NCBI GenBank assembly: GCA_900314525.1
Contig: OMVN01000012.1
Coordinates: forward strand, 1-58,372
DNA from: an uncultured Eubacteriales bacterium
Lineage (GTDB): Bacteria > Bacillota > Clostridia > Lachnospirales > Lachnospiraceae
Reading direction: 5' to 3'
DNA length: 58,372 nt
Positions 1 through 13,696 of the stretch are shown here, one piece after another (the stretch's first letter is position 1; each line of letters begins with the position of its first letter). The position numbers and the translations under genes are program-made. The notes beneath the pieces are model-generated. The model was not told where the DNA came from, searched no databases, and was given only the letters and a program-made list of their open reading frames with translations.

Positions 1-202
1 AAATGCCATTATGGACAGGGTTCTGCATCATGCACATGTAATACCAATATCAGGAAAGTCCTACAGACTGAAGGATCATTTAAAACAAACAGACTAATTA
101 TAAATTTTTATATAATATTTTTTGTACATTGGGTCTTGACATTTTATAGCACGCTACGGGGTGTAAACCCTGTAGCAATAAAAATTAGGTCAAAGTGTTA
201 CA
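1..202 (+). mobile_element. Right end of an IS21-family insertion sequence (partial)
   Basis: The left edge carries the last codons of an IstB-type helper ATPase, followed by about 100 bp of non-coding DNA. That DNA holds a hairpin (arms 153-162 and 167-176, one mismatch). Read inward on the minus strand from 202, the sequence begins TGTAACACTTTGACC, which fits the TGT start typical of IS21-family terminal repeats. A related TGTCAAGACCC stretch lies further in, as multiple terminal repeats would give. The boundary at 202 is an inference: the left end, the target duplication and istA are outside the window. Most likely a real IS remnant or the end of an intact copy. Confidence 0.6.
2..97 (+). 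CDS. istB: IstB-like IS21 transposition ATPase, C-terminal fragment
   Basis: Only the last 31 codons are present, running off the left edge. The visible residues (NAIMDRVLHHAHVIPISGKS, then YRLKDHLKQTD) match the conserved IstB tail, where a D-R-x-x-H motif is followed by a G-x-S-Y-R-L-K signature. In IS21 elements IstB is the AAA+ partner of the IstA transposase and controls target selection. No Walker motifs are inside the window, so function rests on the tail alone. It ends about 100 bp before the presumed element border. Confidence 0.75.
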   Translation, partial: NAIMDRVLHHAHVIPISGKSYRLKDHLKQTD

Positions 203-569
203 AAAATGCTTGACCACAACAAAGCAAGCTCCGAAATCTATGGTAGGATCGTGGAGGGGAAAAGACGCAGGTAAAGATTCTGATAAAAAGTATGATTGGC
301 TTTATATGGATGTGAAAAAAGATGGGTCATTTGAGATGATTGACGTGGAAGCTGCAAATCCAGTAGGCAAGGGATATTTTTACGGTGAAGTTGATGCTAA
401 AAAAGCTACAATTACAATTCATACCATTTACGATGAAGATTATACAGAAGGGGGATTAGCTGATTGGTGGAAGCTTGATAAGGTCGATAAGATTAATTTT
501 AATGTAAGGGGAGATATGCTGATTCTATCTCATAGGGGCAAGCAAATAAGATTTATAAGAAGTGAATAA
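195..569 (+). pseudogene. 5'-truncated lipocalin-like hypothetical protein
   Basis: This is an open frame of 124 codons with a GTG at its head and a stop just upstream. The GTG lies inside the presumed IS end and has no ribosome binding site; neither does the in-frame ATG at 240. The product has no signal peptide, but from residue 17 it reads GSWRGKD followed by alternating beta-strand-like segments, resembling small secreted lipocalin-like domains with a G-x-W start. The simplest reading is that an IS21 element removed the promoter and the signal or lipobox region, leaving the domain. It is followed by a clean terminator. Function unknown. Confidence 0.55.
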
Positions 570-576
570 AAAGATG

Positions 577-603
577 GAGAGGTATTTGCCTCTCTCTTTT
601 TTA
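577..603 (+). terminator. Intrinsic terminator after the truncated gene
   Basis: A six-base stem (GAGAGG/CCTCTC, loop TATTTG) is followed directly by a T-rich run. It closes the truncated upstream gene, supporting the view that this was once an expressed unit. Confidence 0.7.
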
Positions 604-635
604 TCTTGATTATAAGTGTTTGGTAAGGCAATATA

Positions 636-664
636 TTGGAAAATAGACAATAGTGTGTTACAAT
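636..664 (+). promoter_or_regulatory. Candidate promoter for the YczE-like gene
   Basis: TTGGAA and TACAAT are separated by 17 bp, and a TG one base before the -10 makes an extended -10. It lies 25 bp upstream of the start codon and just after a terminator, so a new transcript is expected here. Confidence 0.45.
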
Positions 665-689
665 ACCACATGGAAAAGAGGCAGAAAAA

Positions 690-1316
690 ATGCCAATAAA
701 AAGAATAATTGTATATATTGCTGGACTAATAATACTTGCATTGGGAATAGATCTCAATACAAAGACAATGCTTGGAATTTCACCAATCATATCGGTTCCG
801 TATAATATTTCTGTAATAAGCGGATGGCTATTAGGAGCGGTGATTTTCTCATATTATGTATTGCTTGTTATCTTACAATTATTAATACAAAAAAAGGATT
901 TTCCAGTATATCAGTTTTTACAGATACCATGTGCATTTGTAACAAGTGCTGCGGTTCAGATATTCGATAATGTAATTCCTGTACCAGGACATATTGCTTT
1001 AAAAATAATAGTACTGATACTAGCAATTGTTGTAACGGCAATAGGTGCATCCCTAGTTGTGGGAATGAAAATTGTGCCTAATCCCGCTGATGGACTAGCC
1101 AATATTATTGGTACAAAATTAGGCCATGGTTTTGGTTTTGGAAAAAATATAATTGATTTTATAAGTATTACAGTATCGATTATTATTGGACTTGTTGCAA
1201 AAGGAAGTATTATTGGAATCGGAATTGGAACAGTTATTACAATGATAATGACGGGAAGAGTAATTGCTTTATTACAGAATACAATAGATTCTATCTATGG
1301 ATGGGCAAGCAAATAG
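690..1316 (+). CDS. YczE/YitT-like integral membrane protein
   Basis: The 208-residue protein is almost entirely hydrophobic, with about five or six membrane segments. Glycine-rich motifs stand out (GIDLNTKTMLGISP near residue 19; NPADGLANIIGTKLGHGFG near 131). These are typical of the YczE/YyaS/YitT family of bacterial membrane proteins, probably the DUF6198 branch. The biochemical role of the family is not established; transport or a structural role has been suggested. A weak GAGG precedes the ATG. It lies immediately before the two-component operon, but that operon has its own operator-promoter starting five bases after this stop, so co-function is not implied. Confidence 0.7.
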   Translation: MPIKRIIVYIAGLIILALGIDLNTKTMLGISPIISVPYNISVISGWLLGAVIFSYYVLLVILQLLIQKKDFPVYQFLQIPCAFVTSAAVQIFDNVIPVPGHIALKIIVLILAIVVTAIGASLVVGMKIVPNPADGLANIIGTKLGHGFGFGKNIIDFISITVSIIIGLVAKGSIIGIGIGTVITMIMTGRVIALLQNTIDSIYGWASK

Positions 1317-1320
1317 CATC

Positions 1321-1373
1321 TTAAGAAATATTAAGTATTCTATAACGATATGTTAAGAACCTTATATTATAAT
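1321..1373 (+). promoter_or_regulatory. Response-regulator operator and activator-type promoter, two-component operon
   Basis: TTAAG repeats occur at 1321, 1331 and 1353, with a weaker ATAAC at 1342. This is direct-repeat spacing of 10-11 bp, the arrangement bound by OmpR/PhoB-class dimers. A TATAAT follows at 1368, but the matching -35 position has no consensus, as expected for an activator-dependent promoter. The same geometry recurs before the ligase gene (3421-3473), so the regulator encoded here probably controls both units. Binding is inferred. Confidence 0.65.
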
Positions 1374-1408
1374 TTAAAGAGTCAAAATTATTTTTGAGAG
1401 GAAAAGCT

Positions 1409-2119
1409 ATGGACGATGAAACACAGATTTTAATAATTGAAGATGATAAAGACCTGCGTGAAGGTGTTAAAATTCTCCTTGAGGGTGAAAACCACATTGT
1501 CATAGAGGCAGAAAATGGTATAGAAGGTCTCAGTAAATTGAATGAAGATACAGATCTTGTGATATTAGACATAATGATGCCGGGAATATCTGGAATAAAA
1601 ACATGCGAAAAAATAAGGGAGATTTCAAATGTACCTGTTTTATTTCTAACTGCAAAATCTCAGGAGTCTGACAAACTTATAGGTCTTATGGCTGGTGGCG
1701 ATGACTATCTCACAAAACCTTTCTCGTATACAGAACTTTTGGTAAGAGTGAGGGCATTACTCAGAAGATATAAGATATATCAGGGAAAAAAGAGTTCAAG
1801 GAATAATAACAGTATTATTGAACTGGCAGGTATTAAGTTAGATATGGAATATAATCATGTTATTGTCAAGGGGGAAGAGATAAATATGACTGATACTGAG
1901 TATCAGATTTTGAAACTTCTCATGAAACATCCAAATCAGATTTTTACAGCACAGAGTCTGTATGAGTCTGTGTGGAATGAGCCATTCTTCTATAATTGTA
2001 CCAATACACTTATGGTACATATCAGAAAAATACGAAAGAAAATAGAAGAAAATCCGCAGGATCCAAGTCTTATTATTACAGTGTGGGGAAAAGGATATAA
2101 ATTTAATGAAAAGCAGTAA
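1409..2119 (+). CDS. OmpR/PhoB-family response regulator (VanR-like)
   Basis: The 236-residue protein has an N-terminal receiver domain with the acidic pair E11-D12-D13, the phosphoacceptor D54 in VILDIMMPG, the switch Thr in FLTAK and the Lys in YLTKPF. The C-terminal half is a winged helix ending in the WGKGYKF signature. The start was placed at the ATG behind GAGAGG; an in-frame TTG 15 bases earlier has no binding site. The downstream kinase gene overlaps by 14 bases, so the pair is translationally coupled. The VanR-like sequence and the following envelope operon suggest control of cell-surface modification. The direct target is inferred from shared operators. Confidence 0.92.
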   Translation: MDDETQILIIEDDKDLREGVKILLEGENHIVIEAENGIEGLSKLNEDTDLVILDIMMPGISGIKTCEKIREISNVPVLFLTAKSQESDKLIGLMAGGDDYLTKPFSYTELLVRVRALLRRYKIYQGKKSSRNNNSIIELAGIKLDMEYNHVIVKGEEINMTDTEYQILKLLMKHPNQIFTAQSLYESVWNEPFFYNCTNTLMVHIRKIRKKIEENPQDPSLIITVWGKGYKFNEKQ

Positions 2120-3434
2120 AGTAAAAAGGATAATAAAAAGAAAATCCTTATATTTAAAGATGGGTGTTCTTGTTACTGTGGCATTATTTGTCGCAGTACT
2201 TAGTTTTCTCATATTGAATTATCTGTCCGAAATTTCTATAGAAAAGATATGGGACAGTGACAGGATAGAGAAGGAAAATCAGAAATACATCGACGAGTTC
2301 AAAAAATTTGTGTCTGACAACGAGTTAAAGAGCACAGACAAGAAAATCATAAGTAAATGGGTTAAGGAAAAAAAGATTATTTCCTTAAGCCTGTACAAGC
2401 ATAATCAGAGTAATGATATATCAGATTACACATATGAACCTCAGGACTGGTCATTCTTAGGAGATAAGACTGCAAATCAGGACGTTAAATATTATACGAT
2501 AAATTTTAAGGACAGAAATTTGCAGGCAGTAATTGTTGGTTCATATGATATAAGTATTTACCATTATTCAAATGTAATTTCTCTGGTAATCTCATTTATT
2601 ATAATGATGGCAATAGTGTTTGCAGGAATGAGAAGAGAGGTTAAATATATAAGGACCTTATATCTGGAAACACAGATATTAGAGGGAGGAAACCTGGAGT
2701 ATGAAATAACTGTAAGGGGAACAGACGAATTATCAGAACTTGCACATGAAATCAATTCGATGAGAATTTCGTTGAAAGATCAGTATGAAAGAGATATAGA
2801 ACTTACAGAGACTAATCAGAGAATGATAACTGAAATATCCCATGATTTAAGAACTCCACTGACTACAATACTTTTATACACAGAAATAATAAAAAAGCAT
2901 AAATACAGGGATCTTGATGAGGCCAACGAATATATAGAGAAAATCGAGAAAAAAGTATACCATATGAAGGGTTTATCAGAAAAGCTTTTAGAGTACTCTA
3001 TGCTGGCAGAAAAAGATTCTGCAATTGAACTACAGGAAGAAAATTTCAGGGATGTATTTTATGAATTACTCTCAGAGATGGTATCATACGAAGAGCAGCA
3101 GGGATTTAATGTTGTGTTTAATGGAGAATGGCCGGAGAATACAATTGAAGTATATGATGAATATATTATGAGAATAGTAAACAATATAACCTCTAATATA
3201 GAAAAATATGCAAATCCAAAAGAAACTGTAACAATTGATGTTGTATCCAAAGATGGCTATACAGGATTAAGATTTAAGAATTGTCTTAGAGTATCTGAAG
3301 ATAAGACAGATAGCAAGAGCAGGGGGATAGGAATAGTGAGTATAAAACATATGATGAAAAATATGAGAGGGCAGTGTGAAGTTAAAATGGAGAATAATAA
3401 ATTTAGTCTAACAATATATTTTAAGAATTATTAA
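2106..3434 (+). CDS. Membrane sensor histidine kinase (VanS-like)
   Basis: The 442-residue kinase has two membrane segments (about residues 18-40 and 157-177) around an extracytoplasmic domain of roughly 115 residues. A HAMP-like linker follows, then the dimerisation box SHDLRTPL with His246 as phosphoacceptor, then a HATPase domain with the N box (NNITSNIEKYA) and the G box (GIGIVSIKHMM). It should phosphorylate the overlapping upstream response regulator. The stimulus is unknown. The sensor loop is lysine-rich and mixed-charge, compatible with sensing surface charge, peptides or antibiotics, but no ligand motif is recognisable. Its last codons contain the operator of the next operon. Confidence 0.9.
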   Translation: MKSSKVKRIIKRKSLYLKMGVLVTVALFVAVLSFLILNYLSEISIEKIWDSDRIEKENQKYIDEFKKFVSDNELKSTDKKIISKWVKEKKIISLSLYKHNQSNDISDYTYEPQDWSFLGDKTANQDVKYYTINFKDRNLQAVIVGSYDISIYHYSNVISLVISFIIMMAIVFAGMRREVKYIRTLYLETQILEGGNLEYEITVRGTDELSELAHEINSMRISLKDQYERDIELTETNQRMITEISHDLRTPLTTILLYTEIIKKHKYRDLDEANEYIEKIEKKVYHMKGLSEKLLEYSMLAEKDSAIELQEENFRDVFYELLSEMVSYEEQQGFNVVFNGEWPENTIEVYDEYIMRIVNNITSNIEKYANPKETVTIDVVSKDGYTGLRFKNCLRVSEDKTDSKSRGIGIVSIKHMMKNMRGQCEVKMENNKFSLTIYFKNY

Positions 3435-3473
3435 GAAAATAATCATATGAAATTTATGATTTTTATATATAAT
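3421..3473 (+). promoter_or_regulatory. Response-regulator operator and promoter, ligase-decarboxylase operon
   Basis: TTAAG at 3421 and 3431 is separated by five bases, with weaker half-sites at the 3442 and 3453 register, and TATAAT lies at 3468. The distance from first half-site to -10 is 47 bp, identical to the two-component promoter at 1321. There is no recognisable -35. The first half-sites overlap the kinase stop codon. Transcription would start near 3480, leaving a leader of about 27 bases. Confidence 0.65.
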
Positions 3474-3506
3474 TTATAATTAAAATGTAAGAATGAGGTT
3501 AGGAAT

Positions 3507-4991
3507 ATGAAATGCGTATTAGAAATGCTTGAAAAAACGTGCAGACAGTATCCTGATAAGGAAGCTGTTGAAGATATACAGTCAGTAGTTACATTTAGCA
3601 GACTTGTTGAAATGTCAAAGAGAATAGGAAGTCTCTTAGCGGAACATATAAGTAAAAACGAGCCTGTAATAGTAATTATGGAGAAGAGTATATTAAGTCT
3701 TGCATCTGAGTTTGGGGTAGTTTATGCCGGAGGATTTTATATACCAGTAAGTATTGAGCAGCCGGTAGAGAGAGTTAATCAGATTATTTCAGTATTAAAT
3801 GCGAAAATAATAGTTACAGATAATACAGAGAAAATAAAAGAGTTTGGATTTGATGGAATTGTTATTAATGTTATGGATGGAATTAGCCATGATATTGATG
3901 AGGCAAAACTCGGGGAAATTAGAAAAGAAGCCAAGAGTGAAGATCCTTTATACGGAATATTTACTTCTGGTTCAACAGGCACACCTAAATGTGTAATTAT
4001 AAATAATGGTGCAGTTATTTCGTTTATTGGTCATTTTACAGAAACATTTGGAATTAATAAAGATGATGTAATTGCGAATCAGGCCCCATTTGATTTTGAC
4101 GTATCAGTAAAAGATATTTACTCAGGTTTATATACAGGAGCAAAGGTAGTACTGATTCCTAAAAAATATTTTTCAATGATTTCTAATCTTCTAGACTTTC
4201 TCATTGATAAACAGGCAACTGTAATTGTGTGGGCAGTATCTGCGATGTGTATGGTATCAGGTCTTAGAGGATTCAATTATAAAGTACCTGACAAGTTAAG
4301 ACTTGTAATGTTTTCTGGTGAAGTTATGCAGCCAAAACAGCTTAGAATATGGCAAGATGCACTTCCAGATGTAAAATTTGTAAATTTATACGGACCATCA
4401 GAAATAACATGTAATTGTACATATCATGTAGTAGAGAGAAAGCTTGAATTAGGAGATGTTCTTCCTATTGGAATACCATTTGACGGAAGAGAAGTTTTTA
4501 TTCTGGATGAAAATAATGAAATAATTAATAAGACAGATGAAGAAGGGGAAATCTGTGTTGCAGGTGAATCTATTTCAGATGGATACTATAACAACACGGT
4601 AGAGACAGAAAAACATTTTGTTACATACAATGGCAAATATGTATATAAGACGGGAGATATGGGGTATTTTGGAGAAAATGGAGAACTGTACTTCTGTGGA
4701 AGAAGAGATTTTCAGATAAAACATATGGGTCACAGAATAGAATTAGAGGAAGTTGACCATGCAATATCTCAGATCGATGGAGTTTCAATGGTATGCTGTA
4801 TTTATATTCCAGAGAGAAACAGAATAATTTCTTACTACTCAGGAGACATAGATAAAACTGAACTTCACAAGGAAGCAAAGAGTAAACTTCCTGGATATAT
4901 GCTTCCAAAGAAATTTATACAGGTGGACACAATGCCACTTAATAAAAATGGTAAAATTGACAGGAATGCACTTAGAACTATGGAGGGCTAG
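3507..4991 (+). CDS. DltA-like amino acid adenylating ligase
   Basis: This 494-residue ANL-family enzyme activates an amino acid with ATP and loads it on a carrier protein. Visible core motifs are TSGSTGTPK (from 153), the amine-binding Asp198 in FDFDVSVKD, the GPSE block, the TGD hinge region and the catalytic Lys483 in NGKIDR. Length and spacing match DltA (D-alanine ligase for teichoic acid). However, the position that is a Cys in Bacillus DltA (about 268/269, in the F-C-G-E-V motif) is Ser270 here, so the substrate may not be D-alanine. It is the first gene of a five-gene operon with a carrier and a membrane acyltransferase. An RBS (GAGGTTAGGA) supports the start. Confidence 0.85.
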   Translation: MKCVLEMLEKTCRQYPDKEAVEDIQSVVTFSRLVEMSKRIGSLLAEHISKNEPVIVIMEKSILSLASEFGVVYAGGFYIPVSIEQPVERVNQIISVLNAKIIVTDNTEKIKEFGFDGIVINVMDGISHDIDEAKLGEIRKEAKSEDPLYGIFTSGSTGTPKCVIINNGAVISFIGHFTETFGINKDDVIANQAPFDFDVSVKDIYSGLYTGAKVVLIPKKYFSMISNLLDFLIDKQATVIVWAVSAMCMVSGLRGFNYKVPDKLRLVMFSGEVMQPKQLRIWQDALPDVKFVNLYGPSEITCNCTYHVVERKLELGDVLPIGIPFDGREVFILDENNEIINKTDEEGEICVAGESISDGYYNNTVETEKHFVTYNGKYVYKTGDMGYFGENGELYFCGRRDFQIKHMGHRIELEEVDHAISQIDGVSMVCCIYIPERNRIISYYSGDIDKTELHKEAKSKLPGYMLPKKFIQVDTMPLNKNGKIDRNALRTMEG

Positions 4992-4993
4992 CA

Positions 4994-6157
4994 ATGGAAG
5001 AAAAATTGATTAAGGAAGCTTTGGGCAAATACAAAACCCCTTTTTATATGTTTTCTGTTGAAGATGCAGAGAAAACAATTAGTGGGCTTAGGAACAAAAT
5101 AAATGGTAGAGCAAATCTCTGTTATGCCATGAAGGCAAATCCGTTTATGGTAAGATATATAGAGCCTTATGTAGACAGAATTGAAGTGTGTTCTATGGGA
5201 GAATTCGAGATATGTAATGAATTGGGAATAAATCAGGAAAAAGTTCTTATCTCAGGTGTGTTAAAAGAGGAAGAAGATATTATAAGAATTATGGACACAT
5301 TTGAAAACAGATGCTGTTATACAATCGAATCACCAGAGCAGTACAGACTTATATCTGACTGGGCCAGTAATAATCAGAAGAAAATGAGTGTTTATTTCAG
5401 ACTAACTAGTGGAAATCAGTTTGGAATGGATGAGGAAACAATAGATGGGCTTTTAAAAGCAGCTGCTGATAATAACTTCATTGAAGTCAGAGGCATTCAT
5501 TTTTTCTCTGGAACACAGAAAAAAGTGAAGAGAATAAAAGACGAAACCCAGAGAATTAAGGACTATTTCATTAAAATGAAAGAGGCTGGTCATGAATTTG
5601 GAGAACTCGAATATGGACCAGGAATGGCGGTAAGTTACTTTGAAGGTCAGAAGGAACCAGAAGAATATTTTGATTATCTTGACGAATTTGGAGAAAATGT
5701 TAAAATAACCATTGAACTTGGAAGAAGAATAGCCGCAGAATGCGGAGTATATGTAACTACCATCAAGGATATCAAGACAACCTCAGATGTTAATTACTGC
5801 ATAGTCGATGGTGGTATTCATCAGATGAATTATGATGGACAGTTAAGAGGAATGTACAATCCTGACATAAGAGTAATCAGAAAAGATGGCATTGATTATG
5901 ATGATAATGCTGAAATGAAAAAATATGTAATAGCAGGTTCACTTTGTACAACAAATGATATATTAGTAAGCAGTAAAGAGTTTACAAATCCACAGATTAA
6001 TGATGTGTTGGCGTTTTATAAAACAGGTGCATATTCTGTAACAGAAGGAATGCTTATGTTTTTAAGTCACAGATTACCAGCAATTATTATAAATGAACTC
6101 AATGGAAATATGACTCTGTTGAGGGAAAATATTGAAACTTATAAATTTAACATGTAG
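4994..6157 (+). CDS. Type III-fold PLP amino acid decarboxylase
   Basis: The 387-residue protein has the alanine racemase/LysA fold: Lys47 in CYAMKANP forms the PLP aldimine, the HFF-S-G segment follows, and ELGRR binds phosphate. The C-terminal domain contributes Cys318 and Asp322 (LCTTND), the decarboxylase signature, plus Tyr in KTGAYS. The late FLSH motif resembles carrier- or siderophore-linked decarboxylases (BtrK, PvsE, SbnH types) more than LysA. It starts two bases after the ligase stop with its own binding site, so it is made with the carrier system. Canonical dlt operons have no such enzyme. It may act on free amino acid or on a carrier-bound substrate. Racemase activity is less likely given the Cys-Asp pair. 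Confidence 0.82.
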   Translation: MEEKLIKEALGKYKTPFYMFSVEDAEKTISGLRNKINGRANLCYAMKANPFMVRYIEPYVDRIEVCSMGEFEICNELGINQEKVLISGVLKEEEDIIRIMDTFENRCCYTIESPEQYRLISDWASNNQKKMSVYFRLTSGNQFGMDEETIDGLLKAAADNNFIEVRGIHFFSGTQKKVKRIKDETQRIKDYFIKMKEAGHEFGELEYGPGMAVSYFEGQKEPEEYFDYLDEFGENVKITIELGRRIAAECGVYVTTIKDIKTTSDVNYCIVDGGIHQMNYDGQLRGMYNPDIRVIRKDGIDYDDNAEMKKYVIAGSLCTTNDILVSSKEFTNPQINDVLAFYKTGAYSVTEGMLMFLSHRLPAIIINELNGNMTLLRENIETYKFNM

Positions 6158-6182
6158 TTATAAAATGAAAGGATGAATTATT

Positions 6183-6404
6183 ATGGAAAAACTTTTAGAA
6201 ATTTTAAATGACATTGATGACAGTATTGATTATGAAACAGAGACAGGTCTTATCGACAATCATATTTTTGATTCGTTTGATATTATTCAGTTAGTATCAG
6301 CAATTGATGATGAATTTGATGTGTCAGTGGATGCTTCATTACTTGTACCTGAAAATTTCAATTCTGCACAGGCTATTTATAATATGATTGAAAGCCTTAA
6401 ATAG
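6183..6404 (+). CDS. Small acyl/aminoacyl carrier protein
   Basis: This 73-residue acidic helical protein has the phosphopantetheine attachment motif D-S-F-D with Ser31, followed by IIQLVSAIDDEF, as in DltC-like and acyl carrier proteins. It should carry the amino acid activated by the ligase two genes upstream as a thioester and present it to the MBOAT protein encoded nine bases downstream. Its size (about 75 residues is normal for DltC) and acidity fit a free-standing carrier. A holo-carrier synthase is not in the window. No second carrier gene is present, so the ligase partner is unambiguous. Confidence 0.85.
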   Translation: MEKLLEILNDIDDSIDYETETGLIDNHIFDSFDIIQLVSAIDDEFDVSVDASLLVPENFNSAQAIYNMIESLK

Positions 6405-6412
6405 AAATTGTT

Positions 6413-7933
6413 ATGAATTATTTTGATACAATATATTTATTTATATTTTTGCCAGTTGCTATGCTTATATATCAGCTGACAAAGAGAAAATTCAGGTGGA
6501 TAACACTTCTTGTTTTGAGCTGTTTTGTATATTATACAATGAGTGAAAAACTTATAATTGTGTTTGCAGCAACTTCATTTTTTACATATTTGATTGCACG
6601 GATTATACAGAACAGAAATGATAATGGAAAAAAGAGCAAGGGATTTCTGATATTGGGTATTGTAGGTCTGTTCCTAACACTGATAATATTCAAATATACA
6701 GGATTTCTTGAACAGAACCTCAATGTGATTCTGGCAAAGCTGAAGGTTAAACAGCTGCCAGATGTAGGTAATATCATAATGCCTATGGGAATATCATTCT
6801 ACACATTAGAGGCAGTAGGATATATTACAGATGTGTACTGGAAGAAGATAAAGGCAGAAAAAAATCCCCTCAAGGTAATGCTTTTTCTGGGATTTTTTCC
6901 TCAGATTATGGAAGGACCGATTGCTCTATATTCTCAGACATCGTCAAAACTTTTTGAAGGAAATCCAATCACAGCAGATAACATTTCACAAGGCGGAATA
7001 AGAATTTTTATTGGTCTCTTTAAGAAAATAGTTATTGCAGACAGATTATCAATGATGGTTTCACGTCTTTATAAGAATCCGCTGCAGTATCATGGAGCTA
7101 TGATTGCAGGTGCAGCTATTGTATATACAATCCAGTTATACTTAGAGTTTTCGGGCACAATGGATGTTGTAAATGGTTCTGCTAAGCTATTTGGAATAAG
7201 TTTACCAGAGAACTTCAAACAGCCATTCTTTTCAAAGGATGCATCTGAATTCTGGAGAAGATGGCATATTTCTCTTGGAGTCTGGTTTAGAACTTATATC
7301 TTTTATCCAGTGTCCGTTTCTAAAATGGTTAGAAAATGGAATAAAAAAGCAAAGAAAAAATATGGAAAGTATGTCACAAAACTCGGGACTACAGCAATGT
7401 GTCTGCTTCCTGTATGGATAGGAAATGGAATCTGGCATGGTGCTCAGTGGAATTATATTTTTTATGGAGTATATTACTTTATAATATTATTTGTAGAGTC
7501 CGCACTGGAACCAGTAAGGAAAAAGGCAGAGAAAAAAATTAATACAGGTGTTTTTAATGTAGCAAGAACCCTGAAAACATGGTGCATTATCTTTATCGGA
7601 GAGATGCTATTTAGATCTGACGGTGTGATAATTTGGTTTAAAATGCTGGGAAGGATGTTTTATAAATTCAGAATCTCTGATTTTGCAGGTTTAATACATA
7701 TCAAAGGTGTAAACTTTATTCTCGGGGATTACTTAGTAATATTTGTGGGGATTATTCTAATAGCAATTTATGATATTTTGAAAGAGAAAAATATTTCTCT
7801 GTTTTCGAATCTTGGAAGATTTGAAATGCCAGTCAGATGCGTTGTATATTATGCACTTATATTGAGTATAGTTATTTTTGGTGCGTATGGAACAGGATAT
7901 GAGAAGGTAGATATGATATATGCAGGATTTTAA
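6413..7933 (+). CDS. MBOAT-family membrane acyltransferase (AlgI/DltB-like)
   Basis: The 506-residue polytopic protein has about ten to twelve membrane segments. MBOAT hallmarks are present: MPMGISFYTLEA, FFPQIMEGP, FWRRWHISLGVWFRTY and the catalytic His342 in GIWHGAQW. These motifs look closer to AlgI/PatA than to classical DltB. The family takes an activated acyl group from the cytoplasm and passes it outward to a polysaccharide or teichoic acid. Here the donor would be the carrier protein encoded just upstream. The gene overlaps the next gene by 14 bases, so it is translationally coupled to the SGNH partner, as in DltB-DltD and PatA-PatB pairs. Confidence 0.88.
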   Translation: MNYFDTIYLFIFLPVAMLIYQLTKRKFRWITLLVLSCFVYYTMSEKLIIVFAATSFFTYLIARIIQNRNDNGKKSKGFLILGIVGLFLTLIIFKYTGFLEQNLNVILAKLKVKQLPDVGNIIMPMGISFYTLEAVGYITDVYWKKIKAEKNPLKVMLFLGFFPQIMEGPIALYSQTSSKLFEGNPITADNISQGGIRIFIGLFKKIVIADRLSMMVSRLYKNPLQYHGAMIAGAAIVYTIQLYLEFSGTMDVVNGSAKLFGISLPENFKQPFFSKDASEFWRRWHISLGVWFRTYIFYPVSVSKMVRKWNKKAKKKYGKYVTKLGTTAMCLLPVWIGNGIWHGAQWNYIFYGVYYFIILFVESALEPVRKKAEKKINTGVFNVARTLKTWCIIFIGEMLFRSDGVIIWFKMLGRMFYKFRISDFAGLIHIKGVNFILGDYLVIFVGIILIAIYDILKEKNISLFSNLGRFEMPVRCVVYYALILSIVIFGAYGTGYEKVDMIYAGF

Positions 7934-8996
7934 GAAAAATAATAATAGCGAATTGGAAATTGAAAAAAATACTGAAAAATCAGAAAAGAAATCCAGAAAA
8001 AAGGCAGTGCAGGTAACTGCGTTTATTTTGGGACTTGTGCTTATTCTGATAACGTTGTCAGGAAGTTTTAATCCTATGAACTGGTATCATATAGGGAGAT
8101 TTGATGACAGAAATTCTGTATACACTGGGTTAGTCAGATCTAAAAAGAATACAATAGATTTACTGATAATAGGTGATAGCCTATGTTATTCTTCTATTTC
8201 TCCATGTCAGATTTACGATAAAACAGGAATCTCTGCATTTGTAGCGGGACAGCCTGGTCAGAAAATAGAGGAAACATATTCGGTATTAAAGACTGCACTG
8301 AGAACACAGAAACCAAAAGTGATTCTTTTGGAAACCCATAATTTGTTTTTATATGATGGCTATTTTGTAGAACTTGGAATGTCATTCCAGGAGAAAATAA
8401 ACAGAATGTTTCCTTTGTTCAGATTTCATAATGTATGGAAAAAAGATTTTTATGACAATAAATATTTAAGTACGGTAAACAGACGTCTTGAATATAATGG
8501 ATTTAAAATAAGAGATAAAATTGATTCTTATACAAAGGAAAGTGATTATATGTCAGAAAATCGCAAAAACATAAAAATAAGCACAGAAATCACACCATTT
8601 GTGGAGGATTATTTTAAAAATATAATAGATATGTGTAAGGAACAAGGAATTAAACTTGTACTTTATAGCGCACCATCTCCAAAATGTTATAATTATAAGA
8701 GACACAATGAACTGATAAAATTCACAGATAAATACAATATTGAATATTATGATTTAAACCATAAAATCAATGAGATTGGAATTGACTGGAAGTTAGACAG
8801 TCTTGACCAGGGCGATCACTTAAATATTTCGGGAGCTGAAAAGGTGACGGATTATTTGATAAAAGACGTATTGCCAGAATTTAACCTTACAGATCACCGC
8901 GGGGATGCACAATATTCTGGTTGGAGCAAGCCATTAAAGAAATATTATGCAGATGTTGACAGTGCCTATGAAAAAATGGGCTTTGTAAGGAATTAA
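7920..8996 (+). CDS. Membrane-anchored SGNH-type protein, MBOAT partner
   Basis: The 358-residue protein has a charged cytoplasmic N-terminus, one membrane segment (about residues 30-48) and an extracytoplasmic domain. That domain carries GDS at 85-87 and a C-terminal D-x-G-D-H-L-N block (Asp296, His300). These are the nucleophile and the Asp-His pair of the SGNH fold. Proteins of this kind (DltD, PatB, AlgJ-like) complete transfer of an acyl group delivered by an MBOAT partner. It is not close enough to DltD to use that name. It is the last gene of the operon, before a long perfect terminator. The acceptor polymer is unknown. Confidence 0.8.
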   Translation: MQDFKKNNNSELEIEKNTEKSEKKSRKKAVQVTAFILGLVLILITLSGSFNPMNWYHIGRFDDRNSVYTGLVRSKKNTIDLLIIGDSLCYSSISPCQIYDKTGISAFVAGQPGQKIEETYSVLKTALRTQKPKVILLETHNLFLYDGYFVELGMSFQEKINRMFPLFRFHNVWKKDFYDNKYLSTVNRRLEYNGFKIRDKIDSYTKESDYMSENRKNIKISTEITPFVEDYFKNIIDMCKEQGIKLVLYSAPSPKCYNYKRHNELIKFTDKYNIEYYDLNHKINEIGIDWKLDSLDQGDHLNISGAEKVTDYLIKDVLPEFNLTDHRGDAQYSGWSKPLKKYYADVDSAYEKMGFVRN

Positions 8997-9013
8997 CAGA
9001 AATTAATAAAATA

Positions 9014-9077
9014 AAAAGAGCAGAAAATTCGATAACTTTGAGGGTTACCTCAAAGTTATCGAATTTTCTGCTCTTTT
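9014..9077. terminator. Bidirectional terminator with a 30-bp perfect stem
   Basis: The arms 9014-9043 and 9048-9077 pair perfectly over 30 bp around a four-base GTTA loop. An A-run and a T-run at the ends let it work on both strands. It separates the envelope operon from the convergent argC gene. The stem is much longer than the 8-14 bp of other terminators in this window. Confidence 0.9.
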
Positions 9078-9089
9078 GTTTTATAAATT

Positions 9090-10022
9090 TTATAAACCAG
9101 TGCCTTCGTCAATTCCAAGCACAATATTCATATTCTGTACAGCTGCACCAGAAGCGCCTTTGCCAAGATTATCGAAAAGTGCAGTGATACTTGTCTGGTC
9201 CTCGTGACCACATACCACAAGTTCAAGTTTATTTGTTCCAGCATATTTATTGGCATATAATTTACTGTCATTATCACCAAATGGACATACAGTTACAAAC
9301 TTTTCATCTTTGTAGTAATTGGCAAGTTTTGCACATATCTCTTCTGCTGAGGGATTTCCATTTAACATACGATTGTGAAGCATTATAGTAGAGGCCATAC
9401 CCTTATAATAATCATCAACAACAGGCATAAATACTGGAGAGTATTTAAGACCAGTAACTTTCTGCATTTCAGGAATGTGTTTGTGTTTGAGATTTAACCC
9501 ATATATGCCAGGTGAAGATAGAAGTTCGCTTCGTCCATTGTCTTCGTAATCGGCAATCATTTTCTTTCCACCACCTGAATAGCCTGTCAGAGAGTAACAT
9601 GTAACAGGATAGTCCTCAGGGAGAATATTCATATTTATTAGAGGGGCTACACTAGAAATGAAGCCTGTGGCATGACATCCTGGATTAGCAATACGTTTGC
9701 TATTTTTGATAGCCTCACGCTGAGATTTAGACAATTCAGGAAAACCATAAGTCCAGTTATCATCTGTTCTGTGGGCTGTAGATGCATCTATTATGCATAC
9801 ATCAGGATTATCTACCAGAGATACAGCTTCTCTTGCTCCATCATCAGGCAGACATAAGAAAACAATATCTGCAGAATTTAAAAATTTTCTTCGCTCCTCT
9901 ATATCATGTCTTTTATCATCATCTATTCTAAGTAATTCTATGTCATCTCTTGCACCTATACGGTCATAAATCTGAAGACCAGTAGTGCCACTCTGTCCGT
10001 CAATGTAAACTTTTGTTTTCAT
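9090..10022 (-). CDS. argC: N-acetyl-gamma-glutamyl-phosphate reductase (short type)
   Basis: The 310-residue NADPH-dependent enzyme makes N-acetylglutamate semialdehyde in arginine synthesis. The Rossmann start reads DGQSGTTGLQIYDR, the catalytic Cys116 sits in NPGCHATGF, and SLTGYSGGG and the C-terminal GKGASGAAVQN are family blocks. Its length matches the short form (about 310) rather than the roughly 345-residue form. An AGAAGG binding site lies before the ATG. It stands alone, without other arg genes, and is divergent from a corrinoid reactivase. A promoter and a perfect palindrome lie in the shared upstream region. Confidence 0.93.
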   Translation of the reverse strand: MKTKVYIDGQSGTTGLQIYDRIGARDDIELLRIDDDKRHDIEERRKFLNSADIVFLCLPDDGAREAVSLVDNPDVCIIDASTAHRTDDNWTYGFPELSKSQREAIKNSKRIANPGCHATGFISSVAPLINMNILPEDYPVTCYSLTGYSGGGKKMIADYEDNGRSELLSSPGIYGLNLKHKHIPEMQKVTGLKYSPVFMPVVDDYYKGMASTIMLHNRMLNGNPSAEEICAKLANYYKDEKFVTVCPFGDNDSKLYANKYAGTNKLELVVCGHEDQTSITALFDNLGKGASGAAVQNMNIVLGIDEGTGL

Positions 10023-10120
10023 TTAAAACGCCTTCTTTCTTGAATGATTTTACTTTTTAAGATTAAAATCCAAGCATAACACGTCGATTTATAAATTAAT
10101 GCCCAGTTTTTAACAGTTAC

Positions 10121-10149
10121 AATATATCAAAAACATAAGTATGTTGCAA
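10121..10149 (-). promoter_or_regulatory. argC promoter
   Basis: On the minus strand, TTGCAA (10149-10144) and TATATT (10126-10121) are 17 bp apart. Transcription would begin near 10113, giving a leader of about 90 bases. The -35 abuts the palindrome at 10151. Confidence 0.5.
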
Positions 10150-10150
10150 T

Positions 10151-10175
10151 ATGTAAATAATCAAAATATTTACAT
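10151..10175. promoter_or_regulatory. Perfect 9-bp inverted repeat between divergent promoters
   Basis: ATGTAAATA and TATTTACAT flank a seven-base spacer. The site sits between the argC -35 and the -35 of the reactivase gene, so one bound dimer could affect both. It does not match the usual ArgR box closely (TGAATA-type half-sites). The regulator is unknown. Confidence 0.5.
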
Positions 10176-10188
10176 TCTATAACACGGC

Positions 10189-10217
10189 TTGACAGGGGAA
10201 AGCAGCTATACTAGTAT
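10189..10217 (+). promoter_or_regulatory. Promoter of the corrinoid reactivase gene
   Basis: A perfect TTGACA is followed after 17 bp by TAGTAT. The start codon chosen for the gene lies 28 bp beyond the -10, which argues against the earlier TTG that overlaps this -35. Confidence 0.6.
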
Positions 10218-10245
10218 TGAAATAATAATTAAGGCAGGTGAGCAG

Positions 10246-11769
10246 ATGAATCTCAAAAAACGAATAATTTGTCCAGCAAATATTAATATTTTAAAATATT
10301 TACAGTTACAGAAGATTATAATATCATCTCCATGCGGCGGAAATGGAACATGTGGAAAGTGCAAAATCAGACTTATAGCAGGAAATCTGATGCCAAGCGA
10401 AACAGATAGGAAGTTTTTTAAGGAAGAAGAACTAAAAAGTGGATACAGGCTTGCATGCACAGCGGTTCCAAGACAGAACGTACTCATCGAATACAAAATG
10501 CCGTCAGATGAAGCAGATGTTATTTCTATGGATATAACAGAGGAAGTACCTGATTTAACTCATAGATTTGGAATTGCAATAGACATAGGAACTACTACAA
10601 TTGCTGTGGCACTTGCAGATATTGATGATGAAAAAGTAATATACGCAGATGGTATTACTAATCATCAAAACATATATGGTGCAGATGTGGTGAGCAGAGT
10701 AGTGGCGGCAAACAGTGGACATCTAAAGGAACTTCAGGGGATAATCAAGAAGGATATACTGGAAATTGTGGAAAGAATATGTAAAAAGTATGGGGGAATC
10801 TCAGAAAAGATATGTGATATAGTAATTTCTGCCAATACAACAATGCAGCATTTCCTGCAGGGATATAGTTGTGAAGGACTTGGAAGTTTTCCGTTTAATC
10901 CTATATCACTTGGAGGAGAAACATACGAGTTTAACTTATTATTTGAAAACACAAAAGATATCCTGCCAAATGCCAAAGTGCGTATTCTAAAGGGAATAAG
11001 TACATATGTAGGTGCAGACATTACATCAGGAATTATGGCATATGATATTGTAAATAAAAATGAAACAGCACTGTTCATTGATCTTGGAACAAACGGCGAG
11101 ATGGCGGTAATTAATAATGGAAGGATTACTGTGGCATCTACTGCTGCTGGTCCTGCGCTGGAGGGAGGAAATCTTTCGTGTGGCGTGGGAAGTATAGGTG
11201 GGGCAATCTGTGGTGTAAAATATGACAATAATGAATTTATTTATCAGACAATAAATGATTTAGAACCTGCAGGCATATGCGGTACAGGTGTTATCGAACT
11301 TATTTCTGTACTGTTAGAAAATGGAATAATTAATAATACTGGTAATCTGAGCGAAGAGTATTTTGAGAGGGGATTTGAAATTAATACTCTAAAAGGCATA
11401 AAATTAGTGCTTACTATGGGAGATATCAGGGAGTTTCAGTTGGCGAAGGGGGCAATAAGGGCTGGAATTGATACACTGTTAAAAAGAGCAGGATTAAAAT
11501 ATTTGGATATAGATAAAGTGTATATTTCTGGAGGACTTGGTACTCGTTTAAAACCACAGGCAGCAGGAGCAGTAGGACTAATTCCAGGGGAACTTATAGA
11601 CAGTGCCATAAGCATTGGAAATTCATCTTTACAAGGGGCAGTACTATCATTATATAATCCACAGGAGTGTAATGATAAAATAGAACAGATTATAGGGATA
11701 TCTCAGGAGGATTTTCTGGGAAACGATGAAGAATTCAGAAATAATTTTATTGAAAGTATGAATTTTTAA
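10246..11769 (+). CDS. Ferredoxin-domain ASKHA ATPase, corrinoid-protein reactivator (RACo/RamA-like)
   Basis: The 507-residue protein starts at the ATG behind AGGTGAG; an upstream in-frame TTG lies inside the promoter. An N-terminal plant-type 2Fe-2S domain has Cys30, Cys36, Cys39 and Cys71. The remainder is an ASKHA nucleotide-binding fold with IDIGTTTIAVAL and LFIDLGTNGEMA phosphate loops and a C-terminal YISGGLGTRL block. Relatives reduce inactive Co(II) corrinoid proteins to Co(I) at the cost of ATP, for example for methyltransferases or B12-dependent methionine synthase. No corrinoid protein or methyltransferase is nearby, so the client is unknown. Confidence 0.85.
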   Translation: MNLKKRIICPANINILKYLQLQKIIISSPCGGNGTCGKCKIRLIAGNLMPSETDRKFFKEEELKSGYRLACTAVPRQNVLIEYKMPSDEADVISMDITEEVPDLTHRFGIAIDIGTTTIAVALADIDDEKVIYADGITNHQNIYGADVVSRVVAANSGHLKELQGIIKKDILEIVERICKKYGGISEKICDIVISANTTMQHFLQGYSCEGLGSFPFNPISLGGETYEFNLLFENTKDILPNAKVRILKGISTYVGADITSGIMAYDIVNKNETALFIDLGTNGEMAVINNGRITVASTAAGPALEGGNLSCGVGSIGGAICGVKYDNNEFIYQTINDLEPAGICGTGVIELISVLLENGIINNTGNLSEEYFERGFEINTLKGIKLVLTMGDIREFQLAKGAIRAGIDTLLKRAGLKYLDIDKVYISGGLGTRLKPQAAGAVGLIPGELIDSAISIGNSSLQGAVLSLYNPQECNDKIEQIIGISQEDFLGNDEEFRNNFIESMNF

Positions 11770-11803
11770 ACTATAGTATTATTTAACGTAGTATTTTATA
11801 CAT

Positions 11804-11832
11804 TTGTAAACGCAAGCAAATTGTGCTATTAT
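11804..11832 (+). promoter_or_regulatory. Promoter of the lipoprotein gene
   Basis: TTGTAA and TATTAT are separated by 17 bp, 44 bp before the start codon. Confidence 0.45.
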
Positions 11833-11876
11833 TTTTTTCGGAGCAGTTAATCTTATAGAAAAAGGAGAAAGTGAAA

Positions 11877-13121
11877 ATGAAAAAGAGAATTACATTACTT
11901 GCATTATGTGCTCTTATGGTTTTCGCACTTGTTTCATGCGGAAGCAAAATTTCTGAGAGCAAAATGAAAAAAGATCTTCAGAATTATTTGAAAAAATCTT
12001 TATATCAGGATGATGCAAAGGTTATAAAATTAAAACAGAAGAAATCAAAAGAGAATGGTAAAATAAGAAAGTTTTTGGTAGATTTCACAGTAGTTGAGGG
12101 TGTAAATAAAATAGAAGGCCAGTATACATTAGTTTATAACGAAAAAGGTGATGATTGGAAGCTCACAGATGTTAGGGCATACAAACAGGACAAATGGAAA
12201 GAAGGAACAACAACAACTCCTAAAGATTCCGAGGTAGAGGATTATATTAAAAATTATAGTTCAACACTTTATTATACGGAAGACGGTAATACAGTAACGC
12301 TGAATTATGAGAAAGATGATGTAAAGAACATAAAGATTAAAGACTCTGAATATGATAAATACAAAGGGTATATATATGATGTTTCGTTTAATGTAGAAAG
12401 CGAAATGACAAGCAAAAAATGCGAAGCAAAGATAACAATGGATGCAAATAAAAAGGGAGAATGGGACTGCAGCATTTATGAATTAACAAAACTTGAATCT
12501 GAATTTAAAGGTAAATATAAATTTGATAAATCGGATGATGATATTAAGAAAGATTTAGCAAAAGCAGTAGAATCACATTATAATATGGATGAAGGTACTT
12601 TTGATATTTCTACAGTAAAAGGGTATAAAGTGGGAGATGCTACTTTAAAGAGCGATGAAGATAAAACTCTGTTTGTTCCTATTAAATTTTCTGTAAATAA
12701 CAAAGTAGGCGATTTTGATAATGATGTAAAATTGGCATATGAATATAAAGACGGCTGGGAACTCGATACATATAACACTTCATATGAGAAAGAAATCAAG
12801 AAACTCAATTTAGAAGGAAAATGGGTTGGAGAATTTAAATCATATAATGGTGATTATCAGACAACAATTGATATTACAAGCGTATCTGATACAGAAAATG
12901 GAGATGTAACAGCTACAATATCTATGCAGGCTGCAGACGGAACAGTTACAACAGGTGACTTCAATGGAACAATAGATGATGGCTATCTTGATTTAGAAGG
13001 TAAAAATCTTGTATCTAATGGACAACCTAGCACAATGTCTGTATCTATAAGAACAAAAATAAGTGGAATTACAGGAGATATAGTAAGTCCATCAAATAAT
13101 TATAAGTTTTCAAAACAGTAA
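11877..13121 (+). CDS. Lipoprotein with three repeated alpha-beta domains and a lipocalin-like tail
   Basis: The 414-residue protein has a lipoprotein signal ending in the lipobox LVSC (Cys21). The ATG was preferred over the GTG two codons earlier because AAAGGAG lies nine bases from it. The mature part shows three loosely similar units of about 85-95 residues (near 25-105, 110-205 and 215-310). Each starts with a short helix (K-K-D-L-type) and ends with a W-x-L/W-E-L strand. The tail from about residue 313 begins LEGKWVGEF and looks lipocalin-like, recalling the truncated gene at 195. Probably displayed outside the membrane. The specific function is not recognisable. Confidence 0.75.
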   Translation: MKKRITLLALCALMVFALVSCGSKISESKMKKDLQNYLKKSLYQDDAKVIKLKQKKSKENGKIRKFLVDFTVVEGVNKIEGQYTLVYNEKGDDWKLTDVRAYKQDKWKEGTTTTPKDSEVEDYIKNYSSTLYYTEDGNTVTLNYEKDDVKNIKIKDSEYDKYKGYIYDVSFNVESEMTSKKCEAKITMDANKKGEWDCSIYELTKLESEFKGKYKFDKSDDDIKKDLAKAVESHYNMDEGTFDISTVKGYKVGDATLKSDEDKTLFVPIKFSVNNKVGDFDNDVKLAYEYKDGWELDTYNTSYEKEIKKLNLEGKWVGEFKSYNGDYQTTIDITSVSDTENGDVTATISMQAADGTVTTGDFNGTIDDGYLDLEGKNLVSNGQPSTMSVSIRTKISGITGDIVSPSNNYKFSKQ

Positions 13122-13167
13122 CAATATACAAAATTATTTTTCGGTGGAAGTATAATTTAGATAAATA

Positions 13168-13217
13168 AAATGCCATCGTATAATCCATTAACAGGATTGT
13201 ATGATGACATTTTTTGT
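13168..13217. terminator. Terminator between convergent genes
   Basis: A long imperfect stem (arms 13168-13186 and 13194-13212, two G-U pairs and one mismatch) has a T-run after the right arm and A-rich DNA before the left arm. It serves the lipoprotein gene and probably also the minus-strand gene that converges on it. Confidence 0.8.
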
Positions 13218-13218
13218 T

Positions 13219-13581
13219 TTACATTTTCATATGTTCTTTTAATAATTCAGAGTACAGTGCTTCGGGGGTCCAGTTGATATTGTACATAGTAATTACGGCC
13301 TTAAGATTAATTGGCGGAAGCATGGACTTTTTGTAAGATGCCAGAAATTCATCAATATCATCGCTTGTAAGTCCGGAGAAAACCAGCATTTCTGAAGGAA
13401 GTTCTGATCTTTTGTAATTAATATTATTTTTCTTAAAACCTGGGATGCTAGCCAGGTATCCTAATTTCTGACTATAATCCTTTCTAGAAATGGGAACTAT
13501 GCGTATTGATAATTCCTCACAGATTTTCTTCAATATATTAATTTTTCCTACATTTATGTTAAAAATTAGTATTTGTTTCAT
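13219..13581 (-). CDS. DUF3783-like small protein
   Basis: The 120-residue protein has an N-terminal ILIFNI strand and a later segment with SEMLVFSGLTSDDIDEFL. That segment is characteristic of the DUF3783 domain common in Clostridia, which has no assigned function. There is no signal or membrane segment. It is transcribed alone, divergently from the MoeB/ThiF-like gene, with a short shared upstream region. The start codon is preceded by an AGTGATT-like weak binding site. Confidence 0.65.
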   Translation of the reverse strand: MKQILIFNINVGKINILKKICEELSIRIVPISRKDYSQKLGYLASIPGFKKNNINYKRSELPSEMLVFSGLTSDDIDEFLASYKKSMLPPINLKAVITMYNINWTPEALYSELLKEHMKM

Positions 13582-13662
13582 TTAATCACTCCAAGATAAT
13601 ACAAAATTTATTTATAGAAAATTATAAATGATGCCACTTTTTAAGTCAAATTAAATATTTGA

Positions 13663-13671
13663 TGATATAAT
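13663..13671 (+). promoter_or_regulatory. Extended -10 promoter for the E1-like gene
   Basis: TGATATAAT is an extended -10 element with perfect TATAAT, 25 bp before the start. No good -35 is seen, which extended -10 promoters tolerate. Confidence 0.45.
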
Positions 13672-13696
13672 AGGCGAAAAAACATGGGAGAAAATT

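Follow-up and report, generated by a model that had tools for sequence, protein, structure and literature searches.

The stretch of DNA analyzed here, referred to as the window, comprises 58,372 nucleotides (positions 1 to 58,372 of contig OMVN01000012.1, assembly GCA_900314525.1) from an uncultured Eubacteriales bacterium of the family Lachnospiraceae. Between positions 3507 and 8996 it carries five successive open reading frames (ORFs), all on the plus strand, read as a ligase, a pyridoxal phosphate (PLP)-dependent decarboxylase, a carrier protein, an MBOAT and an SGNH protein, which together make up a putative surface aminoacylation system (Table 1). The first four genes are separated by 2, 25 and 8 nt and the last two overlap by 14 nt. 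A preliminary description had proposed at this place a Dlt-like operon with a built-in amino acid decarboxylase; its five ORFs, as well as the catalytic residues that it named, from Lys483 of the ligase to His300 of the SGNH protein, were all found in place.

The domain matches agree with this reading of the ORFs. In Pfam, the ligase matches AMP-binding at 6.7e-58, and both PLP-decarboxylase domains and the MBOAT score above the curated cut-offs. The carrier remains slightly below the PP-binding cut-off (19.2 vs 20.8 bits), and its Ser31 is conserved as serine throughout the 23 aligned rows. Among the NCBIfam models, the ligase, MBOAT and carrier match best those of DltA, DltB and DltC, respectively, every NCBIfam score being under its curated cut-off.

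Table 1. Genes and other features of the operon and its surroundings (positions in the window)
Feature	Position	Strand	Remarks
Ligase, DltA-like amino acid-carrier ligase	3507-4991	+	494 aa; catalytic Lys483
Decarboxylase, fold-type III PLP decarboxylase, carrier-protein (BtrK-like) type (predicted)	4994-6157	+	387 aa; Lys47, Gln142, Thr174, Cys318-Thr319
Carrier, DltC-like carrier protein	6183-6404	+	73 aa; Ser31 phosphopantetheine site
MBOAT, DltB-like membrane acyltransferase	6413-7933	+	506 aa; His342
MIYAGF, acyl-shuttle-like motif at the MBOAT C-terminus, Tyr503	7913-7930	+	
SGNH, membrane-anchored SGNH-fold acyltransferase (predicted)	7920-8996	+	358 aa; Ser87, His300
Terminator-like stem-loop at the operon end	9022-9069	+	20 pairs, T-rich tail; also faces a convergent argC-like gene
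Response regulator (1394-2119) and sensor kinase (2106-3434)	1394-3434	+	Immediately upstream; candidate regulators

Occurrence of the module

The distribution of the module was followed in several samples. Among 145 genomes, mostly of the same genus and family and including that of the window, a decarboxylase search at 1e-10 gave a match in 41, of which 23 were strong (E 1e-37 or better, own genome included) and 18 were weak and of the LysA kind. In the 22 strong relatives the carrier always lies near the decarboxylase, the ligase adjoins it in 20 (G010 stops at the contig end and the G080 ligase is elsewhere), and an MBOAT is present in 19 (in G070, on the other of two contigs); here and below, absence of an MBOAT refers to the stretch of DNA fetched for a locus. 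A scan of the collection with the ligase alignment returned at least 595 pattern matches, at least 585 of them relatives, and the best 80 are hereafter called the named loci. The decarboxylase stands beside the ligase in 76 of these 80. The gene order of the window is found in 46 of them, including four with a second SGNH gene, and the order MBOAT-SGNH-ligase-decarboxylase-carrier in 12, the remainder being partial or cut by contig ends. The survey of gene order suggested in the preliminary description thus identifies the decarboxylase as a conserved part of the module, and the recurrence of related modules in 22 relatives and 80 named loci is beyond chance.

Judged by record title, the named loci belong to Lachnospiraceae (58), Oscillospiraceae (6), Erysipelotrichaceae (3), Eubacteriaceae (2) and Streptococcaceae (1), with 10 lacking a family assignment; the module recurs in numerous clostridia of gut and rumen. 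When larger sets of genomes were drawn, the decarboxylase profile matched, at 1e-60, 24 of 391 from the class (14 of them below 1e-120, own included, and 10 between 1e-61 and 1e-70) and 5 of 398 from the phylum; in all six strong matches fetched from these draws, the five-gene set surrounded the decarboxylase. Within the genus the module is patchy, being present in two of nine relatives. A tblastn search of the plasmid collection with the decarboxylase gave zero matches at 1e-30, and spread of this gene by plasmids was set aside. Apparently outside the clostridia, a record labelled Streptococcus suis strain SSHP-D (L136) carries the five-gene module with a two-component system upstream.

The decarboxylase and the ligase pocket

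Annotation by overall similarity would name the decarboxylase lysA or a diaminopimelate (DAP) decarboxylase, and the preliminary description had listed a mere housekeeping LysA, beside a ligase loading D-alanine alone, as an outcome that would refute it. That the enzyme is a housekeeping LysA sitting by chance in a D-alanylation operon is scarcely credible. Indeed, a separate LysA (C45, 431 aa, with CESGD, SKFG and GSQ) is encoded elsewhere in the genome, on which ground the housekeeping identity was rejected; in a tree of 41 decarboxylases, all 26 module enzymes form one clade apart from LysA (support 100/99); and the ligase pocket, described below, is unlike that of DltA.

An alignment of 94 module enzymes with 11 LysA-like rows and BtrK (two of the 11, L030 and L119, are atypical for LysA, and the LysA of the own genome, read separately, is not among them) revealed the residues that set the two groups apart. 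The catalytic Lys47 and Cys318 are kept in all 94 module enzymes. Position 142 is Gln in 93 of them and in BtrK, vs Lys in 10 LysA-like rows and Arg in the other. At position 174 the 94 module enzymes have Thr (92) or Ser and BtrK has Thr, vs Ser in all LysA-like rows. After the catalytic Cys, all 94 again have Thr or Ser and BtrK has Thr, vs Glu in nine LysA-like rows, the remaining two having Met and Thr. The residues Q-F-G, G-T-Q and C-T are common to the module decarboxylase and BtrK, and the RPxxY stretch of the LysA-like rows is not present in the module rows displayed.

Comparison with solved structures points in the same direction. The best match of the single sequence is BtrK, the L-glutamyl-[BtrI carrier] decarboxylase (93.2 bits), the first DAP decarboxylase following at 89.0 bits; with the profile, BtrK scores 207 bits, a probable DAP decarboxylase, which we take to be SbnH, 183 bits, and a DAP decarboxylase 177 bits. 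The top NCBIfam model is TIGR03099 (153.5 bits, under its cut-off of 478.45), and the lysA model TIGR01048 gives 148.6 bits where 297.9 are needed. Collectively, the module enzyme looks like a BtrK-type carrier-protein decarboxylase rather than a stray LysA. According to the available part of PMC7857480, BtrK belongs to a clade of specialized decarboxylases and acts on glutamyl-BtrI, converting the glutamyl group to 4-aminobutyryl. Decarboxylation on the carrier, as proposed in the preliminary description, fits this signature and the precedents of BtrK and VinO.

The same residues bear on another possibility, that meso-diaminopimelate is loaded by one alpha-carboxyl and decarboxylated at its other centre, giving a lysyl-carrier and, ultimately, lysyl esters. 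The general kinship of the enzyme with LysA, visible in the TIGR01048 score, would suit such a scheme, as would a ligase pocket in which Asp235 could hold the alpha-amine and Lys239 the distal carboxylate. It is nevertheless improbable, since the decarboxylase has neither the Glu after the catalytic Cys nor RPxxY, carries Gln for Lys at 142 and scores far under the lysA cut-off; moreover, an Rfam scan of positions 1-14000 found neither a lysine riboswitch nor a match to any other family. Of the three substrates considered in the preliminary description, aspartate and glutamate thus remain, whereas the route from DAP to lysyl is disfavoured by the missing marker residues.

Six weaker relatives of the decarboxylase, from the class and phylum draws, share CTP[TI]D (6/6) and Q-F-G (5/6). 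A carrier-protein match, itself weak (18 to 35 bits), lies nearby in four, L179 and L183 being the exceptions, which is consistent with a general association between enzymes of this type and carriers. One locus encodes a protein of 1114 aa (L050:4713-8057) in which a decarboxylase domain is fused to an extended linker, a probable membrane helix, and Ig-like and transglutaminase domains; this fusion adjoins a ligase of a different pocket class (DAKCAVLGV).

The ligase scores 302 bits against the DltA model, whose cut-off is 559.85. Its pocket consists of D198, V199, K202, V241, M268, S270, L294, C302 and N303, which we take to correspond to GrsA positions 235, 236, 239, 278, 299, 301, 322, 330 and 331. 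Two canonical DltA references were chosen from relatives, one above the cut-off (L160) and one below it (L161, 513 bits). In the DltA numbering given in the accessible portion of PMC11253843, the pocket includes Asp197, Leu198, Cys269 and Val301; by alignment to the two references, these residues are Asp198, Val199, Ser270 and Cys302 here. Furthermore, the Met at GrsA position 239 in both references is replaced by Lys202, so that the Leu-Met-Cys of a D-Ala pocket is not found. Of the positions in contact with D-Ala or adjacent to it, four thus differ between the two pockets.

The relation of pocket and decarboxylase was assessed in 131 ligases: that of the window, 20 from relatives, 80 from the named loci and 30 picked by hand from matches to the DltA family (TIGR01734). 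The pocket with Val or Ile at 236, Lys at 239 and Ser at 301 occurs in 100, and a decarboxylase adjoins 94 of these, vs 3 of the 31 with other pockets. Without five near-copies, 89 of 95 ligases with this pocket have the decarboxylase, vs 3 of 31 with other pockets. Fisher's test on the uncorrected table gives p 1.8e-19, a value that is overstated, as the rows are related and the first set was retrieved with patterns of decarboxylase-bearing ligases. Taken singly, Ser301 is present in 96 of 97 ligases with a decarboxylase and in 7 of 34 without, and Val236 in 93 of 97 and 8 of 34. In a tree of 82 of the 131 ligases, the decarboxylase label requires 7 changes (shuffled mean, 25.5); most ligases with the decarboxylase fall into a single clade, and those lacking it are scattered inside.

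Some of these residues recall ligases for beta-amino acids. In the part of PMC11253843 available, VinN (Phe236, Ser301) and an engineered beta-Phe domain (Val236) stand apart from alpha-amino-acid domains by Ser301 and a bulkier residue 236, with Asp235 binding the beta-amino group there. The three VinN-type features, Asp235, a bulky residue at 236 and Ser301, are present in the module ligase as D198, V199 and S270, and Lys239 could hold a carboxylate. Alternatively, aspartate or glutamate might be loaded by the alpha-carboxyl, as may happen in amino acid ligases that have a pocket Lys, the decarboxylase acting on another substrate or in a side reaction. Asp235 is indeed retained as in alpha-amino acid domains, Lys239 also occurs in sister Dlt-like ligases without a decarboxylase, and the loop length equals that of these sisters. 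We consider this alternative improbable: it leaves unexplained the near-constant pairing of the decarboxylase with one pocket type, and an alpha-thioester would give a PLP alpha-decarboxylase no carrier-bound substrate.

Several ligases depart from the common pocket. Those of L044, L052 and L170 carry an Ile at position 235 and an Arg at position 239 (code IAR..), and hence no Asp for the amine; the decarboxylase adjoins the ligase in L044 and L052, and for L170 it is found elsewhere in the genome with a carrier, MBOAT and SGNH gene (L055). In the L044/L052 group the substrate must be held differently. The loci L143-L172, from relatives, display a radiation of Dlt-like ligase-carrier-MBOAT-SGNH sets that have no decarboxylase and whose pockets differ (e.g. 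DAKCAGLGM, DAKDMLLGD and SMTYLALDI), Ser replacing Asp235 in two of them. Genes similar to GNAT acetyltransferases occupy the place of the decarboxylase, between ligase and carrier, at L120:6008-6859, L158:7195-7989 and L172:2700-3170; L120 has the Val/Ile236-Lys239-Ser301 pocket, and L158 and L172 have others. These genes perhaps encode another tailoring enzyme.

The export half and its possible acceptor

The MBOAT has DltB as its sole match among solved structures (88 bits) and scores 166.7 bits against TIGR04091, below the cut-off of 375. The catalytic His342 is kept in 20 of 20 rows, and this DltB-like MBOAT has an SGNH partner. Its last six residues, MIYAGF, which had escaped the preliminary description, correspond to the hexapeptide FXYXXF except for the Met in first position. 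In the accessible text of PMC12148441, this hexapeptide serves as an acyl shuttle whose Tyr is located on DltX in Dlt and on the MBOAT itself in PatA. A looser pattern of the motif was found at the C-terminus of 87 of 91 MBOATs; four lack it: L088 and L102 are truncated where the contig stops, L123 (FQYMQF) retains the Tyr and L098 has a different end. Between the five genes, no ORF of at least 60 aa fits a separate DltX, genes below 60 aa not having been searched for; with the shuttle motif on the MBOAT, a separate DltX gene was set aside.

The SGNH protein itself has no Pfam or NCBIfam match, and 18 of 40 orthologues match the GDSL lipase model. Its AlphaFold model (mean pLDDT 90.6) is similar to SGNH hydrolases in Foldseek (E 2.8e-6, TM-score 0.72 by target); the top structure is E. 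coli thioesterase I, and DltD is not among the 50 structures listed. Four sulfatase-fold proteins are encoded in the genome. Since two of them give weak matches to a lipoteichoic acid (LTA) synthase model, at 63 and 66 bits where the cut-off is 970, an LTA-like polymer is a possible acceptor.

A second, paralogous MBOAT-SGNH pair of the same genome (G000, contig 48; L176:955-3545) is 41% and 36% identical to that of the module and ends in the same C-terminal motif (MYAQF). No ligase is present beside it within the 3.7 kb fetched, and the pair might use the same charged carrier.

Upstream of the operon, the two-component pair is a candidate for conserved control: a regulator similar to this response regulator (>200 bits) occurs near the module in 8 of the 80 named loci, mostly downstream. 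Control by a riboswitch was set aside in view of the empty Rfam scan of positions 1-14000.

Proposed mechanism and relation to known systems

We propose that the operon encodes a dedicated surface aminoacylation system, to which we assign a probability of roughly 0.55. The ligase would activate an acidic amino acid, aspartate or glutamate being the most probable, via the side-chain carboxyl and transfer it to the phosphopantetheine of the carrier. The PLP decarboxylase would then strip the free alpha-carboxyl on the carrier, as BtrK and VinO do, leaving a beta-alanyl- or 4-aminobutyryl-carrier whose acyl group would have a free amine and a net positive charge. By analogy with PatA and Dlt, the DltB-like MBOAT would carry this group across the membrane onto Tyr503 of its own C-terminal motif, from which Ser87 of the SGNH protein would accept it and hand it on to a hydroxyl group on a polymer of the envelope, possibly one resembling lipoteichoic acid. 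As to the substrate, neither amino acid is preferred: the 236/301 pair recalls beta-amino-acid ligases, and thus aspartate, and Lys239 at the pocket floor, together with BtrK, recalls glutamate.

Several observations weigh against this proposal. First, the whole chemistry of the module is predicted from sequence. In the decarboxylase tree, BtrK falls outside the module clade, at the base of the LysA side (weak support, 84/76), so that the kinship with BtrK lies in scores and residues and not in the tree. The decarboxylase-bearing ligases mostly form one clade, and the link between pocket and decarboxylase therefore derives from few independent events. Lys239 is present in 95 of 97 ligases with a decarboxylase but also in 22 of 34 without, and alone it is consequently no mark of decarboxylase systems. 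Two VinN features are absent: the loop after YGPTE is as long as in sister ligases, and Lys330/Arg331 are replaced by Cys302/Asn303. A 4-aminobutyryl thioester can close to a lactam, which counts against the glutamate version and speaks for aspartate. In 3 of the 22 relatives and several named loci, ligase, decarboxylase and carrier occur with no MBOAT. At L046:476-6356, thioesterase-like and asparagine-synthase-like genes accompany a carrier, a split ligase and a decarboxylase gene, likewise without an MBOAT; the loading cassette may thus also serve a small-molecule pathway.

Finally, the pocket is not strictly tied to the decarboxylase. The preliminary description would have been undermined by a decarboxylase that is not conserved in the operon; it is kept in most loci, but the pocket occurs without it in 3 of the 80 named loci and in 2 of the 30 loci of the TIGR01734 set. 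The same-pocket ligases without an adjoining decarboxylase are those of L087, L105, L120, L134, L147 and L153. The L087 ligase lies at a contig end, and the decarboxylase of that genome sits on another contig. Whole searches of the draft genomes of L105, L120 and L134 gave decarboxylase matches of LysA strength or none, and those of L147 and L153 (G011 and G066) gave zero at 1e-10. Five draft genomes thus have the same pocket yet no such decarboxylase; either the enzyme is not indispensable or the drafts are incomplete.

These five genomes could also obtain the same amino acid from elsewhere, which would agree with a decarboxylase that makes the free substrate, converting aspartate, glutamate or DAP to beta-alanine, 4-aminobutyrate or lysine, which the ligase would then load. 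A precedent exists in IdnL3, which, in the portion of PMC11284099 available, decarboxylates free beta-glutamate ahead of loading. Such an order of events is unlikely here, though it deserves consideration: the pocket Lys (K202) would suit a carboxylate better than an amine, the nearest characterized relative, BtrK, acts on the carrier, and VinN uses 3-methylaspartate and not the decarboxylated product (PMC11284099, same portion). Decarboxylation on the carrier, after side-chain loading, remains the reading we prefer.

A broader interpretation is that gut and rumen clostridia possess a diversified class of systems for decorating the envelope, built on one chassis, namely DltA-like ligase, carrier, DltB-like MBOAT with its own Tyr shuttle and SGNH protein, with interchangeable pockets and an optional tailoring enzyme acting on the carrier after loading and before export. 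Here the tailoring enzyme would be the decarboxylase, and the products beta-alanyl or 4-aminobutyryl surface esters. We advance this joint reading tentatively, with slightly more doubt than belief. Canonical DltA is above its cut-off in only 1 of the 145 genomes surveyed, not in the own genome, and Dlt-like ligases with other pockets are common. The existence, in this family, of Dlt-like systems with a common export half and various ligase pockets could turn out to be the more important result.

How well cells resist cationic peptides depends on the positive charge of their surface polymers, for which the textbook source is D-alanine. If the proposal is true, these gut bacteria would decorate their surface by decarboxylation on a carrier before export, a chemistry so far known from antibiotic pathways. 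The parts of the module are known, and their combination is not met in the open-access literature searched, subscription journals lying largely outside that search, which does not establish its absence from print. Similarly, the searched literature, mostly open-access, contained no cationic modification of teichoic or other envelope polymers by beta-alanyl or 4-aminobutyryl groups. Gut metagenome tables that list 'btrK' (e.g. PMC10182090, from the part available) may partly count this surface system.

Among known systems, two resemble the loading half. With butirosin biosynthesis (BtrI/BtrJ/BtrK) the module shares a PLP decarboxylase for a carrier-bound acidic amino acid, predicted in our case. 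Unlike the module, butirosin biosynthesis makes an antibiotic and has no MBOAT or SGNH protein, BtrK lies outside the module clade, and the loading enzyme BtrJ is of another type than the module ligase. In the vicenistatin (VinN/VinL/VinO) and fluvirucin (FlvN) pathways, as far as PMC11284099 could be accessed, an acidic amino acid is loaded as a beta-amino acid onto a stand-alone carrier and then decarboxylated by a PLP enzyme. The module has the same set of adenylating ligase, stand-alone carrier and PLP decarboxylase, with a predicted similar order of reactions, whereas the VinN system feeds a polyketide synthase, and Phe236, Lys330/Arg331 and the shorter loop of VinN (accessible part of PMC11253843) are all missing from the module ligase. 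The exosortase-A ligase and decarboxylase (TIGR03098 and TIGR03099) are alike in name, but the module proteins score far below their cut-offs (592.35 and 478.45 bits, respectively) and the ligase scores higher against DltA, so that this identity was rejected.

With the Dlt system of teichoic acid D-alanylation (DltA, DltB, DltC, DltD and DltX), the module has in common the ligase, carrier, MBOAT and SGNH protein. It differs in falling below every Dlt cut-off, in carrying a decarboxylase, in its pocket (D-V-K..S vs D-L-M..C in DltA), in having the shuttle motif on the MBOAT instead of on DltX, and in the position of its ligase far from canonical DltA in the ligase tree. The C-terminal Tyr hexapeptide on the MBOAT and the SGNH partner are shared with PatA/PatB of the AlgI family, as described in the accessible part of PMC12148441; that type reportedly has no carrier and uses an acyl-CoA donor (same source), in contrast to the ligase, carrier and decarboxylase found here. 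Since the module possesses these three components as well as the built-in Tyr, it appears as a hybrid of the Dlt and MBOAT-SGNH types.

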